Origin: Sutcliffiella horikoshii DSM 8719
Lineage (GTDB): Bacteria; Bacillota; Bacilli; Bacillales; Bacillaceae_I
Direction: 5' to 3'
NCBI GenBank assembly: GCA_001648575.1
Contig: LQXN01000059.1
Location: 62,001 to 126,000 of the forward strand
DNA length: 64,000 nt
Below the pieces are notes generated by a model. It made no database searches. It saw only the letters and a list, made by a program, of their open reading frames with translations, and was not told the DNA's origin. Below, one piece after another: positions 8,495-61,667 of the stretch. Numbering within the stretch: the first letter of the stretch is position 1; each line of letters begins with the position of its first letter. A program made the translations under genes and the position numbers.

Positions 8495-8750
8495 AAACAG
8501 GCCCTTACCGGCCTGTTTCAGTGTGTAGTCAAAGCTAAAAATAATGGAAATTCCCTAGTTGATCGTAGTGGAAGGAGCGTAGACTCCTGCGGGAGGAAGG
8601 GACAGGTAAGACCCCGCAACGGAGTGAGGAGGCTTACGGACCGCCCGCTGGAAAGCGAAGCTCCTGCAACGGAGAACAACCGTTCCAACAGATAACTCAA
8701 CTGATTTTTAGTTTGTCAACAGTCTGAAACAGGCCCTTACCGGCCTGTTT
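8495..8750 (+). mobile_element. Family A element (copy A1) with duplicated terminator hairpin
   Basis: The element itself is 8519-8726 (208 bp), starting CAGTGTGTAGTCAAAG and ending TTTGTCAACAGTCTG; these ends are imperfect inverted repeats. The same 24-bp hairpin (AAACAGGCC stem, CTTACC loop) stands on each side, at 8495-8518 and 8727-8750, in direct orientation and with an identical loop. The right copy is followed by eight Ts (msmX terminator) and the left one is preceded by an A-tract (terminator for the minus-strand gene at 8784). The core at 8558-8690 is GC-rich and highly structured. It encodes no credible protein. Confidence 0.85.
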
Positions 8751-25486: not shown

Positions 25487-25533
25487 AGATCCTCACCCTT
25501 TTTTAAAAATCTTAAATGTCTGTTTAACTCCTC

Positions 25534-25660
25534 TTGATTTCCGTTTCAGGGGTTCGCTTTCCGCGGGGCGATGCTTGAGCCTCCTCACAACGCTTCAGGG
25601 GTCTCAAGCTACCGCTACCTCCCGCAGGAGTCTCTCCCCTTACACTCCAATCAACAGGGG
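25534..25660 (-). repeat. Family A repeat core in the thi operon leader (copy A9)
   Basis: On the minus strand the stretch runs from TGTTGATTGGAG through GACTCCTGCGGGAGG and GAGGAGGCTCAAGC to CCCCGCGGAAAGCG and GGAAATCAAG. It corresponds to the GC-rich core of family A without the CAGTGTG and CAGTCTG ends. Its helix GCTTGAG/CTCAAGC (25603-25609 with 25573-25579) covaries with the other copies. It lies between the riboswitch terminator and tenI, so it is transcribed in the 5' UTR. Confidence 0.75.
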
Positions 25661-25683
25661 ATTCTCGTGTAATATTATTAAGC

Positions 25684-32442: not shown

Positions 32443-32703
32443 CAAAAAAGCCCCCTGCAATTTGGAGGCCACTGAAATACCCAATAACTAATCTTATTTT
32501 GAATTTCTAGCTGTTGATTGGAGCAATAGGCGAAGACTCCTGTGGGGGGATAGCGACATTCTTGAGACCCCGCAGGGCGCAGCCCGAGGAGGCTCAAGGT
32601 CGCCCCGCGGAAAGCGCAGCCGTTTGCGGAAATCAACAGCGGTATGAAACAGATAACTAAAATATTGTACTTTTTCAGTGGCCTCGCAATTTTGGGGCTT
32701 CAT
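32443..32703 (+). repeat. Family A repeat with exchanged hairpin arms (copy A7)
   Basis: The core (about 32509-32640, from GCTGTTGATTGG to AAATCAACAGC) matches family A, including GAAGACTCCTG, GACCCCGCAGG, GAGGAGGCTCAAGG and CGCGGAAAGCGCAGC. The CAGTGTG/CAGTCTG ends are absent. A hairpin stands on each side with the same loop (GCAATTT), but the arms are exchanged: 32465-32477 pairs perfectly with 32673-32685 (13 bp), and AAGCCCC (32448-32454) with GGGGCTT (32694-32700). It separates two convergent genes. Confidence 0.75.
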
Positions 32704-48433: not shown

Positions 48434-48680
48434 AATAGGCTCTTATTAAAAGGCTGTTTTCGTAAACTTTGTTGCTGGTTCGAATACTCAAACTAGCCGT
48501 TATTTTACTTGCTGTCGTGCCCTTTTCTTGGTTAAAAGTAATAGAATGCATGCCTATTTTACTGTTTCTAAGCTATGAAAAGTCCAATTACCGACTTTTC
48601 ACTAGTGAATAGCAACAATCTTTGAGAAAAGAGCCTATTAAAAAGATTGCGGTTAGTTGGTTGGTACGAAAACAGCCTTA
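48434..48680 (+). repeat. Family B repeat, full copy nested in an older copy (B1)
   Basis: An inner element at 48451-48638 has 26-bp imperfect terminal inverted repeats, beginning AGGCTGTTTTCGTAAAC and, from the other end, AGGCTCTTTTCTCAAAG; both continue to TTGTTGCT. It is flanked by direct ATTAAA. Outside lie extra end fragments, ATAGGCTCTT (48434-48443) and TACGAAAACAGCCTT (48665-48679), as if it had entered an older copy. The right fragment overlaps the uppP stop codon. No ORF of note. Confidence 0.65.
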
Positions 48681-50742: not shown

Positions 50743-50857
50743 TTAGACTGTTTTCGAATACTTTGGTGATTTTTGCAAATTCAATACTATGTAAACCATG
50801 AAAAGTCCAATTGCTGACTTTCCATCTGTGAATAACAACAATTTTTGAGAACATTAT
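50743..50857 (+). repeat. Family B repeat, short copy (B2)
   Basis: The stretch from AGACTGTTTTCGAATACTTT to ATGAAAAGTCCAATTGCTGA and GAATAACAACAATTTTTGAGAA matches the two ends and inner part of the copy at 48451-48638, lacking about 75 bp of its middle. Confidence 0.65.
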
Positions 50858-51532: not shown

Positions 51533-52204
51533 TTGAAAAATGTACTCATTATTCTTTTTATAGGCATGATCCTTTCAGTAATTACTGCAGGTTGTGGTTC
51601 AGCAAAAGAAGGTGTACCCGGAACAATGCAAAAATCACCTCCCTTGCTGCCATCCAGTGGTGACTATACCTTTCAGCGCTTTATTGAAGAAAAAGAACAT
51701 ACAGAATACAGAGTGCTCTACAGCAAGGTTCCTGACAGCAATATAGTACAGGTGAAAACGGTAGTGGAACTCGATTCAGATTCTTCTTCACAAGACACTT
51801 CTGAAACGATCAACTTCTACGAAGAAAAACAAGATGGGATATTTGGATATATTGTTGTTTCTGAAGATTTTCCTTCTGATTGGAGTGCTGATGATATTAA
51901 GAAGTTTCCAAAAACAAAAATAATCGCCTTTCCACTGGAAGAAAGTAAGGAATGGACAGAAACTATAGAGGATTTCAACCTGGATATAACTTATCATATC
52001 AGATCAATAGACGCTGAAATTGAAACGCCTGCAGATACATTCAAGGACTGTATCATTATTGATTTTGAAGAAATGGATCAGGAAGGAAATACTTTACGTA
52101 AAGGAAGCTCGGTTTTTGCACCGCAATTCGGATGGATTCGTCATGAAATCAAAGAAGAAGTATTAAAAGATGTTCATAAGTTAATAAAGATAAATGAAAG
52201 ATAA
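51533..52204 (+). CDS. Lipoprotein of unknown function
   Basis: The 223-residue protein has a lipoprotein signal (ILSVITAGCGSA, Cys near 21). The mature part has FIEEKEHTEYRVLYSKVPDS, SKEWTETIEDFNLDITYHIR and a C-terminal FKDCIIIDFEEMDQEGNTLR then VFAPQFGWIRHEI, a layout seen in proteins that assess a surface-exposed beta domain. It starts at a TTG with GGAGGGG upstream. Its last codons and stop lie inside the left hairpin of family A element A2. Confidence 0.7.
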   Translation: MKNVLIILFIGMILSVITAGCGSAKEGVPGTMQKSPPLLPSSGDYTFQRFIEEKEHTEYRVLYSKVPDSNIVQVKTVVELDSDSSSQDTSETINFYEEKQDGIFGYIVVSEDFPSDWSADDIKKFPKTKIIAFPLEESKEWTETIEDFNLDITYHIRSIDAEIETPADTFKDCIIIDFEEMDQEGNTLRKGSSVFAPQFGWIRHEIKEEVLKDVHKLIKINER

Positions 52205-52460
52205 TAATCACTTATCTTTCTCAGTGTGTAGACAAAGCTTTAAAATAATGAAATTCCCTAGTTGATCGCAGTGGAGGGAGCGTAGACTCCTGCGGGAGGA
52301 AGGGACAGGTAAGACCCCGCAGGCGTAAGCCGAGGAGGCTTACGGACCGCCCGCTGGAAAGCGAAGCTCCTGCAACGAAGATCAACTGTTCCAACAGATA
52401 ACTCATCTTATTTAAGTTTGTGACAGTCTGTGAAAGATAATAATCACTTATCTTTCTTTT
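52195..52460 (+). mobile_element. Family A element (copy A2) with duplicated terminator and stop codon
   Basis: The element is 52221-52430 (210 bp), TCAGTGTGTAGACAAAG to GACAGTCTG. An identical 26-bp hairpin (stem GAAAGATAA, loop TAATCAC) flanks it at 52195-52220 and 52431-52456. The left copy includes the last codons and TAA of the upstream lipoprotein gene; the right copy carries the TTTTTT tract. The pre-insertion order was therefore gene, hairpin, T-tract. Confidence 0.88.
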
Positions 52461-52671
52461 TTATTTTAAATCATTCTATAACGGAACCTTTTTCTAAAAA
52501 AAGCCGTCTTAGTAATAGATACTTCGCTCTACGAATATTTTACATAACTGTAATGAAGAGAAAACCATAAATGTAGTATAATTACACACATATCATTCCC
52601 TAATCATGGGTATATAGATACCGAAAGCCATAATTATGTTATACTTCTATAATTAAGGAGGAGATGTACCA

Positions 52672-52866
52672 TTGAGTTTAAGTAAAGTTATTTTTGTCGT
52701 TAGTATCATGGCTAGCTTCCTCATGCTTGTTGCATCTGTTATAGCATTTGTCATTCATGATATCGGATATTTCTGGATAATGTTCGCTCTAATGGTTGTT
52801 AGCATCCTTCAAAATATTTCAGTATATAAACATATTTCTACCTCTGATGAACCTGTTAAAGGCTAG
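52672..52866 (+). CDS. Small membrane protein, two helices
   Basis: The 64-residue protein has two hydrophobic segments, VIFVVSIMASFLMLVASVIA and YFWIMFALMVVSILQNI, and a short polar tail. It starts at a TTG with AAGGAGGAG upstream. No family is recognised. A GACCGCTT/AAGCGGTC hairpin follows the stop. Confidence 0.6.
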   Translation: MSLSKVIFVVSIMASFLMLVASVIAFVIHDIGYFWIMFALMVVSILQNISVYKHISTSDEPVKG

Positions 52867-52902
52867 ACCGCTTCCTGTACATACACTTTAAGCGGTCTTA
52901 TA
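52865..52902 (+). terminator. Terminator-like hairpin
   Basis: AGACCGCTT pairs with AAGCGGTCT over a 16-base loop, followed by TATACC. The T-tract is weak. Confidence 0.55.
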
Positions 52903-52944
52903 CCCCAAAACACTCCACCTCCCGGAGTTAAAATAAACTCAATG

Positions 52945-52975
52945 ACAAAAAGCCAGCAAATTGCTAGCTCTTCAT
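52945..52975 (-). terminator. Terminator at the stop of the 52964 gene
   Basis: On the minus strand AGCTAGCA pairs with TGCTGGCT across a three-base loop and is followed by TTTTTGTC. The arm includes the stop codon. Confidence 0.5.
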
Positions 52976-53962
52976 TTCTGTGCGTATATAATTTCCATCC
53001 TTATCATAAAAATGGAATTTCTTGATTACGTTATCATCTGTTTCCAAAACTTCTGGATGAGATATGTAAATCAGGAACTGATTCGCTATTACGTTGCCAG
53101 AAAACTGAAATATCACTTCTTCTTTCCTTTCTACTTCAAGCACTACTTTCTGAACCTGCTCACCTTTTGGTACCAAACCATGAAGATATGTTTGCTCAGT
53201 AAGATGAGCCTTCACCTTTTTCTCTTCGAAACAGAAAGCTTTTTCTTCCGTCATAGAGTAATAGTCCGGCTCCTCGTAACCCGCAATCACAAATCCATCT
53301 TCATTCTGTCGATAACCACCTAAAACAGTTTTTAATACGGAATCTTTCTCAGAATATATGAGGAATGATTGATTGCTTTCATCTACAAACATTAATTCCA
53401 TACCTTCCAATTCTTCTCCATGACCTGTACCGGAAAGTGCTCCGTTTAAACTTCTGTAAATATAAGTGGGTTCTATGTTTACTTTCTTTGCATCCTCTAC
53501 TTTTCCTATGTGAGTGAAATATTTTTGTGGAGGAACAGCTATCTTTACTCTTTCTCCCTGACTCTCAATATCCGTCTCAATTGTCTTGACTGAAGAATGC
53601 AAGTTTTCCCCTATAAAAAGGACACGGGTATTTGACTTGGTTTTGATTATTTCCGAATAAAAAGGATGGTCGAGTAAGAATTTTTCAAGCTTCAATTTAC
53701 CATATATACCTTTTTGGAAAATGACAGCCCCCAACTCATTTTGATTATATTCAAACGTGGCAACCACTTTATTAGTATCATCTATCTGGAAAACTTCCAA
53801 TAACAATGGCTCATCCTCCGCTAACTCCAGTTGCTCTTGGATGAGGCTGGTAATTTCCCTTTCGGAGTGTTTCAAGGTGTAACTCGTATACTCATAAATC
53901 GAATAAACTCCCGCAATTATCAGACTGGATATTGACATGATTATAAATAACCTTTTCAACAC
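52964..53962 (-). CDS. Membrane-anchored hypothetical protein
   Basis: The 332-residue protein has one N-terminal membrane segment (LFIIMSISSLIIAGVYSIY) and a large extracytoplasmic part without Cys-rich or enzyme motifs that I can name. EEPDYYSMTEEKAFCFEEKK and VVLEVERKEEVIFQFSGNV suggest repeated beta structure. The start at 53962 follows GGGGG. It is alone on its strand. From 53963 to 54290 I find only AT-rich promoter-like sequence. Confidence 0.6.
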   Translation of the reverse strand: MLKRLFIIMSISSLIIAGVYSIYEYTSYTLKHSEREITSLIQEQLELAEDEPLLLEVFQIDDTNKVVATFEYNQNELGAVIFQKGIYGKLKLEKFLLDHPFYSEIIKTKSNTRVLFIGENLHSSVKTIETDIESQGERVKIAVPPQKYFTHIGKVEDAKKVNIEPTYIYRSLNGALSGTGHGEELEGMELMFVDESNQSFLIYSEKDSVLKTVLGGYRQNEDGFVIAGYEEPDYYSMTEEKAFCFEEKKVKAHLTEQTYLHGLVPKGEQVQKVVLEVERKEEVIFQFSGNVIANQFLIYISHPEVLETDDNVIKKFHFYDKDGNYIRTEMKS

Positions 53963-54294
53963 CGTTACCCCCTTGTTCCATTTCTACCTCCTAGGAAAAA
54001 AACTAAATATAGTTCTATAGCCCTACCTTTAATCTTAATGCAATTATTCTGTGGCGGCTATTGGGAAAGTGAACCCTCATTTATTGATTTAATTCAATTT
54101 TTCAGTGGATTACTTTCCTAAACCAAATATTTTTTATTTTGGATTATCTTGGATTTTTTGGATTGCTTTTTTACAATTTCCGAACTTCATTCTACATTTT
54201 CTTAACTTTATTCGGCTTTTTGGACAAAAAACCTTTTCAAATTCAATATTTTCCTATATAATCACTTCATAATCCAAACAACTCAATAATCAAC

Positions 54295-54366
54295 AACTCG
54301 TATAATAGTAGGAATATGGCCTACAAGTCTCTACCAAGCTACCGTAAATGGCTTGACTACGGGTGA
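54295..54366 (+). promoter_or_regulatory. Purine riboswitch, guanine class, of xpt
   Basis: The aptamer has ACTCGTATAATAGTAGG, ATATGGCCTAC, GTCTCTACCAAGCTACCG and TAAATGGCTTGACTACGGGT. The C in GACTACG marks guanine/hypoxanthine specificity. GACTACGGGTGA (54355-54366) can pair over 12 bp with TCACTTGTAGTC (54433-54444), an antiterminator that competes with P1 and with the terminator. Confidence 0.93.
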
Positions 54367-54413
54367 TACTTTAATTTTCCTGTACTCAGATTCGTCTGAG
54401 TAGTATTTTACAT

Positions 54414-55092
<679 letters not shown>

Positions 55093-55112
55093 GAAAAAAT
55101 GGAGGTCATCTT

Positions 55113-56642
55113 ATGAAAGCAACTACTGTTCACTATCCATGGTATAAAAAAGAAGACACTGATGCATTCTTCGCACTCTTTCAAAATAATTTAGCGAACT
55201 TTGTCATCATTGCAGTAACAATGCTTGGAATGGGCTTTCCTGCAAGCATTGTATTCGGAAAAGTGATTCCTGGAGCGGCGGTTGCCGTAATGGTCGGTAA
55301 CCTTTATTATGCATTCATGGCAAAACGCCTGGCTCAAAAAGAGGGACGGACAGATGTCACTGCCCTCTCCTATGGGATCAGCACTCCAGTCATGTTCGTT
55401 TTTTTATTCGGGGTATTAGCGCCTGCTAACGCTTTGACTGGTGATCCAGAGCTAGCATGGAAAATTGCTGTTGCTGCTGCCTTTTTAAGTGGACTGATTG
55501 AAACCTTGGTCAGCTTCACAGGAAACTGGGTGCGAAACCACCTGCCTCGTGCAGCTATGCTTGGCGCACTTGCAGGGGTAGCTCTTACCTTCATTGCCGG
55601 AGAAATGTTATTCAACACTTTTTCCATCCCGGTTGTAGGGTTAGTCGCCCTGATTATCATCATAGTCGGGGTAGTTGGGAAAATGGCCATGCCATTCAAG
55701 ATTCCAGCTTCCTTGTTTGCTGTCATCATCGGTACGGTACTTGCTTTCGCATTGGGCTATCAATCCCCATCACAAATTTCTGAAGGGCTTGCTCACATCG
55801 GTTTTTACCCTATTTTACCTACTCTGGCTGCTTTTGAAGGTATGACATATCTATTTGGAGCACTTATCGGACTACTGGCTATCATATTACCAATCACACT
55901 TTATAATGCGATTGAGACCATGAACAATGTGGATGCGATGTCAGCAGAAGGCGATTCCTATGATGTTCGGGAATGTCAGGCAGTGGATGGGGTCGGCACG
56001 ATGCTCGGAGCAGTTTTTGGTGGCCTTTTTCCCACTACTGTTTATATTGCGACAGTTGGATCGAAATGGATGGGTGCCGGAAGAGGATATAGCATCTTAA
56101 ATGCCATCGTTTTTGGAATGGCAGCCATGACAGGTGTAATAGCGGCCCTCGCTGCCATCATCCCTCTTGCGGCGGTTGCGCCAATCTTAGTATTCGTCGG
56201 AATCTCCATGGTAGCTACTGCATTCCAATCCAATGACAAGAAGTATTTCCCTGCAGTTGCGATAGCGATGCTTCCTTACTTCGCAAACTATGTCATGACA
56301 CGCTTTAACAACAGTGCAGGTGAAGTCGTCTCCGGCATCTCCGAGGGTATTGTCCCTCTAGGTCAAGGTGCCATGTTTACAGCCATTGTCCTTGGTGCTA
56401 TTACCGTTTATATCATCGACCAGGATTATCGTCGAGCTTCCTATTTTGCACTAATTGGAGCATTTCTGTCCTTCGTTGGTTTTATGCATGCACCAAAACT
56501 TGCATTCAATGCAGCTCCTGACTTTGCGGTAGGCTATGTCCTAGTAGCTGTATTCTTGGTTTATTGTTCGTACCAACAGGCAACAAACATAGTCAAACAA
56601 ACCGAACGGAAGGTTTCTGTTAAACAGCAGGCAGCTTCATAA
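55113..56642 (+). CDS. NCS2/AzgA-like purine permease
   Basis: The 509-residue membrane protein has about 13 helices. Motifs such as NLANFVIIAVTMLGMGFPAS, VTALSYGIST, YNAIETMNNVDAMSAEGDSY and LGAVFGGLFPTTVYIATVG fit the nucleobase:cation symporter-2 superfamily, closer to its AzgA-like side than to the shorter xanthine permease PbuX. It is 20 bp after xpt and so under the same guanine riboswitch, which makes xanthine, hypoxanthine or guanine the likely cargo. GGAGG precedes the ATG. Confidence 0.78.
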   Translation: MKATTVHYPWYKKEDTDAFFALFQNNLANFVIIAVTMLGMGFPASIVFGKVIPGAAVAVMVGNLYYAFMAKRLAQKEGRTDVTALSYGISTPVMFVFLFGVLAPANALTGDPELAWKIAVAAAFLSGLIETLVSFTGNWVRNHLPRAAMLGALAGVALTFIAGEMLFNTFSIPVVGLVALIIIIVGVVGKMAMPFKIPASLFAVIIGTVLAFALGYQSPSQISEGLAHIGFYPILPTLAAFEGMTYLFGALIGLLAIILPITLYNAIETMNNVDAMSAEGDSYDVRECQAVDGVGTMLGAVFGGLFPTTVYIATVGSKWMGAGRGYSILNAIVFGMAAMTGVIAALAAIIPLAAVAPILVFVGISMVATAFQSNDKKYFPAVAIAMLPYFANYVMTRFNNSAGEVVSGISEGIVPLGQGAMFTAIVLGAITVYIIDQDYRRASYFALIGAFLSFVGFMHAPKLAFNAAPDFAVGYVLVAVFLVYCSYQQATNIVKQTERKVSVKQQAAS

Positions 56643-56651
56643 GTTAATTTC

Positions 56652-56920
56652 AAGCCGAGAGTTCTTCTCTCGGCTTCAGTGTGTAGACAAAGTTCAAATA
56701 TGATAAAAATCCTTAGTTGATTGCAGTGGAAGGCGCGAAGACTCCCGCGGGAGGAAGGGACATGTATGACCCCGCAGGCGTAAGCCGAGGAGGCTTACGG
56801 ACCGCCCTTCGGATAAGCGAAGCGCCTGGAACTAAAATCAACTGTTCCAACAGATAACTTAACTATTTCTTAGTTTGTCAACAGTCTGAAGCCGAGAGTT
56901 CTTCTCTCGGCTTTTTTTAT
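56652..56920 (+). mobile_element. Family A element (copy A3) with duplicated terminator
   Basis: The element is 56677-56888 (212 bp), CAGTGTGTAGACAAAG to TTTGTCAACAGTCTG. The same 25-bp hairpin (stem AAGCCGAGAG, loop TTCTT) flanks it at 56652-56676 and 56889-56913 in direct orientation; the right copy has the TTTTTTT tract. The permease mRNA should therefore carry the whole element in its 3' UTR. Confidence 0.88.
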
Positions 56921-57012
56921 TTCTGTATAAAACTACCACCTTATAATGCAAGCTATATTTCTTATTTACAAAAAGAACAGACATAATTTTTCTCTTAATA
57001 AGGCTAACGCCC

Positions 57013-57041
57013 ACGAGTTTTGGACGAATGCACATACAATA
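57013..57041 (+). promoter_or_regulatory. Sigma-K/E-like promoter of the glycine-rich protein gene
   Basis: CATACAATA (57033-57041) fits CATANNNTA, with ACG 17 bp upstream, about 30 bp before the ATG. The consensus is short. Confidence 0.5.
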
Positions 57042-57070
57042 CAAAGTAGGCAGAGTGAGGAGGAGAACAA

Positions 57071-57592
57071 ATGTATTTACAAAATAATATGTACGGAAAA
57101 TTTCAACCTGGACAGCGTTCTATTGGCATAGGATATGGAAGAAGACCTGGCCCTGGATATGGGGGGCTCGGCTTTGGAAGCTTTGGCTTTCCACTTTTAG
57201 GCGGGCTTGCCGGTGGATTGTTGGGTAGCGCTCTATTTAATAATTTTGGTTATGGTGGCGGATTTGGTGGACCGGGATTTGGCGGTGCTCCTGGTTTCGG
57301 CGGTGGACCGGGATTCGGTGGTGCTGCTGGTTTCGGTGGTGGACCGGGATTCGGTGGTGCTCCAGGTTTCGGTGGTGGACCGGGATTCGGTGGTGCTCCA
57401 GGTTTCGGTGGTGGACCGGGATTCGGTGGTGCTCCAGGTTTCGGTGGTGGACCGGGATTCGGTGGTGCTCCTGGTTTCGGCGGTGGACCGGGATTCGGTG
57501 GTGCTCCAGGTTTTAGCGGTGGACCGGGATTCAGCGGTACTCCTGGTGTTGGCGGAGGGTCTGGGTCCACAGGCTTTCAAGGTAACTTTTAA
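57071..57592 (+). CDS. Glycine-rich tandem-repeat protein, probably spore surface
   Basis: The 173-residue protein starts MYLQNNMYGKFQPGQRSIGI, has a hydrophobic Gly-rich stretch (FPLLGGLAGGLLGSALF, residues 37-56), and then about seven copies of a 12-residue unit, GFGGGPGFGGAP. Low complexity prevents a family call. Such proteins in Bacillus often belong to the spore coat or exosporium, and the promoter-like motif upstream agrees. Ribosome site GAGGAGGAG is 6 bp from the ATG. Antisense frames through the repeat are open only because of its composition. Confidence 0.7.
   Translation: MYLQNNMYGKFQPGQRSIGIGYGRRPGPGYGGLGFGSFGFPLLGGLAGGLLGSALFNNFGYGGGFGGPGFGGAPGFGGGPGFGGAAGFGGGPGFGGAPGFGGGPGFGGAPGFGGGPGFGGAPGFGGGPGFGGAPGFGGGPGFGGAPGFSGGPGFSGTPGVGGGSGSTGFQGNF
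57255..57535 (+). repeat. 36-bp tandem repeat inside the glycine-rich gene
   Basis: About seven to eight units of 36 bp (each GGTTTCGGTGGTGGACCGG plus GATTCGGTGGTGCTCCA) follow one another, with synonymous differences growing toward both ends. The central units are identical. Length variation between strains is likely. Confidence 0.85.
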
Positions 57593-58677: not shown

Positions 58678-58934
58678 AAAGGATGCCTAGTCAGGCATCC
58701 TTTCAGACTGTTGACAAACTAAGAATCAGTTGAGTTATCTGTTGGAACGGTTGTTCTCCGTTGCAGGAGCTTCGCTTTCCAGCGGGCGGTCCGTAAGCCT
58801 CCTCACTCCGTTGCGGGGTCTTACCTGTCCCTTCCTCCCGCAGGAGTCTTCGCTCCTTCCACTACGATCAACTAGGGAATTTCATTATTTTAAGCTTTGT
58901 CTACACACTGAAAGGATGCCTACTCAGGCATCCT
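58678..58934 (-). mobile_element. Family A element (copy A4), first of a tandem pair
   Basis: The element is 58704-58910 (207 bp, minus orientation: plus strand starts CAGACTGTTGACAAAC and ends CTACACACTG). Hairpins with the same AGGATGCCT/AGGCATCCT stem flank it at 58678-58703 (loop AGTC) and 58911-58934 (loop ACTC). Stems are identical while loops differ. Confidence 0.87.
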
Positions 58935-59173
58935 CAGACTGTTGACAAACTAAAAATCAGTTGAGTTATCTGTTGGAACGGTTGTTCTCCGTTGCAGGAG
59001 CTTCGCTTTCCAGCGGGCGGTCCGTAAGCCTCCTCACTCCGTTGCGGGGTCTTACCTGTCCCTTCCTCCCGCAGGAGTCTACGCTCCTTCCACTACAATC
59101 AACAGGGAATTTCTATCTCGAAAATAACTTTGTCTACACACTGAAAGGATGCCTAGGAAGGCATCCTTTTTTA
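58935..59173 (-). mobile_element. Family A element (copy A5), second of a tandem pair
   Basis: The element is 58935-59143 (209 bp), nearly identical to A4 and in the same orientation. It shares the middle hairpin with A4 and ends at the third hairpin 59144-59169 (loop AGGA), which is followed by TTTTTTATA. Three hairpins and two elements thus lie between the convergent genes at 58675 and 59171. Confidence 0.87.
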
Positions 59174-61399: not shown

Positions 61400-61667
61400 A
61401 GCACCGCTCGTCAGCGGTGCTCAATGTGTAGACAAAGTTATATTATCTTTGAGAAATGCAAAACCTGTGTTGATCGTAGTGGAAGGCGCGCAGACTTCTG
61501 CGGGAGGAAGGGACAGGGAAGACCCCGCAGGGCGTAAGCCCGAGGAGGCTTCCGGACCGCCCGCGAAAAGCGAAGCGCCTGGAACGAAGATCAACAGCAG
61601 GATGCAAATTTAAAAATATTTAGGGCTTTGTCAACAGTCTGAGCACCGCTCGTCAGCGGTGCTTTTA
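61400..61667 (+). mobile_element. Family A element (copy A6) with duplicated terminator
   Basis: The element is 61422-61641 (220 bp), CAATGTGTAGACAAAG to CTTTGTCAACAGTCTG. The 22-bp hairpin (stem AGCACCGCT, loop CGTC) is duplicated exactly at 61400-61421 and 61642-61663. The left hairpin is preceded by six As, giving a strong T-tract for the minus-strand uppP operon. Its helix GGAAG/CTTCC (61517-61521 with 61549-61553) replaces GTAAG/CTTAC of other copies. Confidence 0.88.

Follow-up and report, generated by a model that had tools for sequence, protein, structure and literature searches.

A short interspersed repeat of Sutcliffiella horikoshii DSM 8719 stands, in most of its copies, between two direct copies of one hairpin. 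The best overall explanation, with a probability of about 0.8, is that the repeat is a MITE moved by an IS1182 transposase into an extruded cruciform, the whole hairpin being duplicated. The parts of this reading are held with different firmness. It is nearly certain that the repeat is an IS1182-derived MITE and duplicates whole hairpins; the substrate is probably an extruded cruciform with its 5' feet as the points of cutting; and that movement of the junction sets the length of the duplication has about an even chance. The ends, the family of like-ended IS elements, the target, its duplication and symmetry, the single-hairpin sites and the hairpin-sharing neighbours were all read from sequence.

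Inspection of the window, that is, the whole stretch of 64,000 nt that was analysed, revealed six copies of the repeat, each with hairpins at its flanks. The features are listed by window position, with the strand where one applies.

8495-8518: left copy of a duplicated putative terminator hairpin (24 bp, AAACAGGCCCTTACCGGCCTGTTT), with an identical copy at 8727-8750; an element-free single hairpin in genomes G008, G003 and G014 of the genus
8519-8726, plus strand: MITE copy 1 (208 bp)
8727-8750: right hairpin copy, T-tract on the outer side
52195-52221: left copy of a duplicated hairpin (27 bp, TGAAAGATAATAATCACTTATCTTTCT)
52222-52430, plus strand: MITE copy 2 (209 bp)
52261-52386, plus strand: core within copy 2, representative of the structured core of about 124 bp common to the leader of some IS1182 elements and an order-wide repeat
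52431-52457: right hairpin copy of copy 2
56652-56676: left copy of a duplicated putative terminator hairpin (25 bp, AAGCCGAGAGTTCTTCTCTCGGCTT), single in contig C30 of the same assembly and in G008, G014 and G003
56677-56888, plus strand: MITE copy 3 (212 bp)
56889-56913: right hairpin copy of copy 3
58678-58703: first of three hairpins (AAAGGATGCCTAGTCAGGCATCCTTT); one such hairpin, element-free, in G008 and G014
58704-58910, minus strand: MITE copy 4 (207 bp)
58911-58934: middle hairpin, common to two insertions (copies 4 and 5)
58935-59143, minus strand: MITE copy 5 (209 bp)
59144-59169: third hairpin, T-tract on the outer side
61400-61421: left copy of a duplicated hairpin (22 bp, AGCACCGCTCGTCAGCGGTGCT), single in G003; another insertion in G014
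61422-61641, plus strand: MITE copy 6 (220 bp subfamily)
61642-61663: right hairpin copy of copy 6

Copies and ends of the repeat

Six complete copies with the same hairpin on either side had been reported in a first-pass annotation of the window, and all six were located with their hairpins. The coordinates given there hold overall, except for copy 2, which really starts at 52222, the T at 52221 being part of the duplicated target. The ends described as common needed correction: the left end of copy 1 has one mismatch (CAGTGTGTAGTCAAAG) and copy 6 has another (CAATGTG), the right end of copy 2 has a deletion, and ..GTTTGT.., not ..CTTTGT.., stands at the end of five of the six copies. The terminal inverted repeat of 12 out of 15 bases was given correctly.

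In the genome, taken as the assembly that contains the window (4,677,891 bases or 4.68 Mb, 67 contigs), 128 occurrences of the end motif CTTTGTCWACAVNCTG were counted, and none of the reversed control. The exact 16-mer of the left end was counted 87 times in the source genome and is present in eight of 16 genomes of the genus, the source genome included; the counts elsewhere are 33 (G014), 30 (G008), 20 (G009), 5 (G010), 4 (G006) and 1 each (G003 and G005). A profile of the six window copies gave 117 matches in the window and 102 loci, and the analysed set was made up of the 95 distinct matches that are full-length and have 60 nt or more of flank on each side; the 22 matches left out were partial copies or had too short a flank. 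The loci did not cover every one of the 128 motif places, and covered the copies on the last contigs only in part. About 100 hairpins of the genome bear the element.

The length of the repeat is typically about 210-220 bp, with a range of 176-221 bp over the full copies. It is short, has no transposase gene and is present in many copies (95 full ones), as is characteristic of a MITE; copies 1 and 5 are overlapped only by short frames. The 95 copies cluster in groups of 38, 29, 18 and 4 plus five smaller clusters, and the 220-bp cluster, which comprises 29 copies with a mean identity of 0.946 and a best pair at 1.000, appears to be recent. At the repeat, no Rfam family was found at the gathering threshold, one match lying far below its gathering score (E up to 1).

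Other features were recorded in the window. A frame at 57071-57592 holds an 18-bp tandem array coding for a glycine-rich GFGGAPGFGGGP repeat. A second, unrelated interspersed repeat (AAAAGTCCAATTACCGACTTTTC...) is located at 48569-48628 and 50792-50851, and a similar stretch lies downstream of a pbuG-like gene in G003. Five riboswitches were identified, one cobalamin (44243), two purine (54278 and 29553) and two TPP (35940 and 18228), together with a cspA thermoregulator (25752).

The duplicated hairpin and sites without the element

Of the 95 copies, 77 have a hairpin directly at each end and 91 have one at one end or both. None was found in windows 26-60 nt further out (0/95 on each side), and shuffled left flanks gave 3/475. 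A strict target duplication abutting both ends was present in 79 of the 95 copies, compared with 3 of 1880 re-paired flanks. Within a copy, the left and right hairpins had a mean identity of 0.933 (24 perfect; n = 77), against 0.477 when re-paired, and the central nine bases matched better in direct than in inverted orientation in 74/77; the second hairpin is therefore a direct copy of the first. The within-copy identity and the element-free single-hairpin sites bear out the first-pass view of the hairpin as a target duplication and not a part of the element. Eighteen of the 95 copies fell below the two-sided hairpin threshold and 40 were without a duplication at one mismatch or less; most of the copies failing a threshold we take, as a conjecture, to be aged.

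At least four of the eight bases outside the right hairpin were T in 63/77 copies (24/77 in far flanks), and at least four of the eight outside the left hairpin were A in 60/77 (31/77 in far flanks). A T-rich or A-rich tract was present on an outer side in 74 of the 77 two-hairpin copies, which speaks against most copies lying outside terminators, a possibility raised for checking in the earlier annotation. Among the 92 copies with enough flank to count gene context, an open frame of at least 80 codons, reading toward the element, ended no more than 130 nt away on at least one side in 81, and an 80-codon frame ran into the junction in up to four left and three right flanks. The control for this count, at points 250 nt further out, comprised 8 usable copies only, 5 of them with a gene end nearby, and is too small for comparison. 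Based on the outer tracts and the neighbouring frame ends, most targets look like intrinsic terminators at gene ends. Nine pairs of adjacent copies with one hairpin between them were found by eye, three of which include a partial copy.

The site comparison covered five of the six window insertions (8519, 56677, 58704, 58935 and 61422), and for each of them an element-free site with one hairpin was found in some species of the genus. The proposed check of empty sites, where two hairpins without an element would have counted against a target duplication, thus gave a single hairpin in relatives at the loci compared. Both the 8519 and the 56677 locus have one hairpin and no element in G003, G008 and G014. 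The 56677 locus is also element-free, with one hairpin, in contig C30 of the same assembly, at 100% identity over 3108 + 417 bp; a further 1240-bp end piece of this contig is 99.9% identical and breaks off where the next element has its right end. Contig C30 is short and allelic to window positions 52431-57305, and this allele may be a real polymorphism within the sample or a product of assembly; the contamination estimate of the assembly is 3.79%. The 58704/58935 locus, with its two elements and three hairpins in the window, is element-free in G008 and G014, where a single such hairpin stands, and G003 has one different hairpin there. The 61422 locus has one hairpin and no element in G003, and G008 also carries an element there. 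In G014 an element of the shorter type is inserted at the orthologous hairpin and points the other way with respect to the neighbouring genes, so this terminator was struck at least twice.

Like-ended IS1182 elements and the origin of the repeat

Full-length IS elements with like ends, for which the first-pass annotation had advised a search, proved to be of the IS1182 type, decayed in the same genome and with intact genes in other genomes. In the same genome a full-length decayed element (L007 5189-6686) lies between two imperfect hairpin copies, and another IS1182-type relative has its end at a terminator. An intact cognate transposase was not found in the window's assembly among five PF05598 matches, of which two are in decayed relatives with these ends and the others in an element with different-looking ends. 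The PF05598 transposase G000:C67:28568 (466 codons open) was considered as a partner and rejected, its ends being unlike those of the MITE by eye.

A search with one piece of the transposase in 120 genomes of the genus, family and order gave matches in 69. In total 39 IS loci were inspected: 30 from this search, 8 from another transposase search, and L007. In 13 IS copies both ends were present and the duplicated 20-42 bp corresponded to a hairpin; the remaining loci were truncated or decayed, had one unrecognisable end or N-masked flanks (L107), or were chance pairings. In the distant IS elements L105 and L109 the left and right hairpins differ, which recombination between copies would produce; L145 has a hairpin on one side only. 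Twenty further copies from four genomes included 19 with both ends, with hairpin duplications of 18-34 bp in 19/19. With one copy counted in both sets, 31 distinct like-ended IS copies have whole-hairpin duplications of 18-42 bp, all dyad-symmetric, at palindromic targets such as have been reported for some IS1182 members. Four transposases scored 477, 483, 497 and 490 bits on the IS1182 model NF033551 (cut-off 270), with PF05598, PF13751 and PF01609 above their cut-offs. Of the two families guessed beforehand, IS1182 could be retained and IS1202 could not, as the duplication lengths are variable and the transposases match the IS1182 model.

In genome G086 three IS copies (L216-L218) are located behind 5S rRNA genes (Rfam), L217 at 11 nt, L216 at about 210 nt and L218 at about 300 nt. 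The hairpin is CACACCAATTATGGTGTG in all three, apart from small differences in the outer stem; the duplications measure 22, 18 and 34 bp, and every one of them is symmetric. These copies lie amid repeats of the 5S tail and terminator. In L162, L144, L146, L161, L139 and L143, the left IS end was seen by eye to consist of an inward hairpin followed by a T-run, which is likely a terminator and would protect the transposase gene against transcription from outside.

The long-type MITE has a right end (CAGACTGTTGACAAAG) that is identical in 16/16 bases to the left end of a broken IS1182 copy from S. rhizosphaerae, and the motif CAGnnTGTnGACAAA is present in IS elements with intact genes, so that MITE and IS1182 elements have ends in common. 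Neither an intact IS with both exact MITE ends nor one with those ends and the core was found among the IS loci inspected. A core of about 124 bp, homologous to the MITE interior, lies between the left end and the transposase gene in L162 (G005), L161, L160, L146 and L144. L162 matches the MITE profile with an E-value of 1e-46 over model positions 20-211, and in four of the five core-bearing IS elements the match extends to the last position of the profile. Since the right part of the MITE (end and core) matches the left end and leader of these IS elements, the MITE is probably an internal-deletion derivative of a core-bearing IS1182 element.

The core is an order-wide repeat present in 103 of 150 genomes, for which no close precedent was found among the matches listed from the open-licence literature. 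Its structure covaries: six of 20 pairs are changed on both sides, a number reached by 17 of 500 shuffles, and the covariation score is 0.214 against 0.097, with no shuffle reaching it. The core was also considered as a mobile unit in itself and rejected, as core-only copies in G003, G004, G005, G006, G007, G012 and G013 are without such a duplication. Core-only copies without IS ends (L123-L134) were observed, several of them just before a terminator-like hairpin. The window has two more core copies without MITE ends, at 25514-25669 and 32454-32695. The latter has ends (CACTGAAA.../...TTTCAGTG) like those of the other, 8-9 bp IS1182 group described below, and is also flanked by imperfect hairpins with direct GCAATTT loops.

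Mechanism of insertion and comparison with known systems

In the preferred mechanism the MITE would be moved in trans by an IS1182-family DDE transposase. The target would be a palindrome extruded as a cruciform, chiefly an intrinsic terminator. Both 3' ends of the element would be joined to the 5' foot of each of the opposed hairpins, which are two dyad-symmetric points, and gap repair would yield the whole hairpin on both sides. The four-way junction would move along the stem, and because it can do so the duplication would be symmetric yet variable in length. The outer T- and A-tracts would stay outside and the element would end up between two hairpins; judged from this anatomy, a bidirectional terminator should stay usable both ways. 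That termination would be kept, and that this may be why the element accumulates, fits the anatomy. Spread at low harm is suggested, with the terminator copied and not broken and each insertion offering hairpins for the next, as in the nine adjacent pairs.

The symmetry was assessed on a clean set of 55 MITE copies with duplications at one mismatch or less. These duplications measure 18-38 bp, and in 55/55 their centre is no more than 0.5 nt away from that of the hairpin, against 5% for random shifts. For the IS copies, the offsets are equal on both sides in 13/13 and 19/19. Duplication length is correlated with the hairpin span in the rejoined site (rho 0.69 for the 55 MITE copies and 0.71 for 13 IS copies). 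Upon comparison of the MITE and IS duplications, the repeat makes the same duplication as its presumed parent IS; over both it covers 18-42 bp and tracks the target palindrome. For most DDE transposases, duplication length is fixed by active-site spacing. In 26/55 copies the duplication ends 2-4 bp inside the longest possible palindrome and in 10/55 it ends 1-3 bp beyond, so the cut is not made strictly at the base of the stem.

Symmetric cuts are expected of any two-fold symmetric complex, and a dimer reading the dyad of the palindrome in linear double-stranded DNA, with no cruciform, would account for the same element and duplication. We consider this unlikely. The loci have no evident target sequence in common (0.477 identity when re-paired) beyond a preference for an outer A-T pair, with T as the last base on the left in 81/95 and A as the first on the right in 78/95. 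A cut spacing that varies from 18 to 42 bp is hard for a rigid dimer on linear DNA, and the three G086 copies have duplications of 18, 22 and 34 bp from one and the same hairpin core. The habit of the like-ended elements points to a transposase reading DNA shape, not sequence.

A hairpin on single-stranded DNA, arising from replication or transcription (R-loop), is a still less probable target. Terminators are transcribed, and for group IIC introns the use of terminator hairpins has been reported. Direct duplication of a whole hairpin, however, needs staggered joining on both strands, and no clear orientation bias was found against terminator polarity, with a T-run on the right only in 21 and an A-run on the left only in 16 of the 77 copies. 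The IS1202 family makes a near-constant duplication of 24-29 bp at Xer sites; duplications of that length are common among the MITE copies, but the probability of an IS1202-type element with a long near-constant duplication at Xer/dif-like sites is negligible, given lengths of 18-42 bp that vary with the hairpin and four transposases far above the IS1182 cut-off. Hairpins at both ends in 77/95 copies could also be expected if both belonged to the repeat and not to the target, for which there is practically no chance, as they differ between loci (0.477), match within a locus (0.933), and stand singly at element-free sites in other species, which refutes it.

Besides the elements to which we ascribe insertion into a cruciform with duplication of the whole hairpin, a second IS1182 group was found, with ends GAGnCnnCTGAAA and transposases of 491-537 aa in those translated; on NF033551, two members reached 361 and 332 bits (cut-off 270). 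Of its 31 copies with both ends, 30 show a duplication of 8 or 9 bp. The middle of the duplication is no more than 2 nt from the best local hairpin centre in 21/30, against 7/60 control windows (11/30 against 2/60 in the strong-hairpin subset), and 9/30 are not hairpin-centred. In alignments that cover most of the length, the transposases of this group are about 20-24% identical to that of L136, the IS1182 element of G007 with an open frame of 448 aa. A tree of 28 distinct transposases, taken from 36 loci and rooted at the midpoint, places the ten whole-hairpin transposases in one clade (support 1.0), and the 18 others, which include a few with other ends or without demonstrated loop use, join at low support (0.36). 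Three IS1182 copies in three genomes (L201, L203 and L204) have a common 9-bp target, GGACGGTTC or its complement, and five loop-type IS1182 copies (L170-L173 and L196) were seen by eye to be inserted in copies of the core repeat.

The closest known system is IS1272/TnSha1 of staphylococci, in the IS1182 family, for which a structure-guided choice of hairpins, several of them terminators, has been described, with 16-bp terminal repeats and no common target sequence (PMC4923244, PMC5678879). Wan et al. (2017) proposed that IS1272 attacks at the 3' feet of the cruciform and that the hairpin is lost; their alternatives are attack at the 5' feet with duplication of the whole hairpin (pathway b) and attack at the loop with duplication of the loop (pathway c), which are alternatives of the model given without an example in the first part of the discussion (PMC5678879). 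The MITE and the like-ended IS elements have in common with IS1272 the transposase family, the hairpin targets, the terminators, the 16-bp terminal repeats and the lack of a common target sequence. IS1272, however, removes or replaces the hairpin without target duplication, whereas the MITE and the like-ended IS elements duplicate it whole; hairpin replacement of the IS1272 type was not seen for the repeat, which has hairpins on both sides in 77/95 copies and single hairpins at element-free sites. The second IS1182 group is likewise of the same family with targets that are often hairpins, but duplicates 8-9 bp, often at the hairpin centre, and not the whole hairpin.

The two groups look, from their duplications, like the alternatives of Wan et al. 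(whole hairpin and loop), each typical of one group. We put forward, at somewhat less than even odds, a more general proposal: IS1182 transposases would be cruciform-directed, and each group would have its own place of strand transfer with respect to the four-way junction: the 5' feet outside (whole hairpin; the clade of about 450 aa and the MITE), the loop inside (8-9 bp; the group of about 490 aa) or, as in IS1272, the 3' feet, with loss of the hairpin. Every duplication of a whole hairpin would then be a fossil of the extent of terminator extrusion in a living cell.

Palindromic targets were reported for the IS1182 family by Siguier et al., as cited by Furi et al. (2016) and Wan et al. (PMC4923244, PMC5678879), according to the latter without detailed data (PMC5678879). 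Membership of this family and palindrome targeting are what the like-ended IS elements have in common with it in general. For whole-hairpin duplication no paper was found among the matches listed from the open-licence literature, with subscription papers mostly outside, IS1272/TnSha1 being the only close precedent; the available sections of PMC3196728 and PMC3281130 hold nothing on hairpin targets. The repeat resembles bacterial MITEs, which are short and non-coding with IS-like ends and a high copy number, and differs from them in its specificity for terminator hairpins and the duplication of the whole hairpin. The IS1182 family table lists duplications of 0-60 bp, and its curators may know long ones. 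Palindrome targeting was already known for the IS1182 family, and what is new is the element described here, the evidence for dyad symmetry and the modes typical of each group. With a duplication length that follows the target's own palindrome, the formation and use of short cruciforms in bacterial cells, a long-standing question, become testable.
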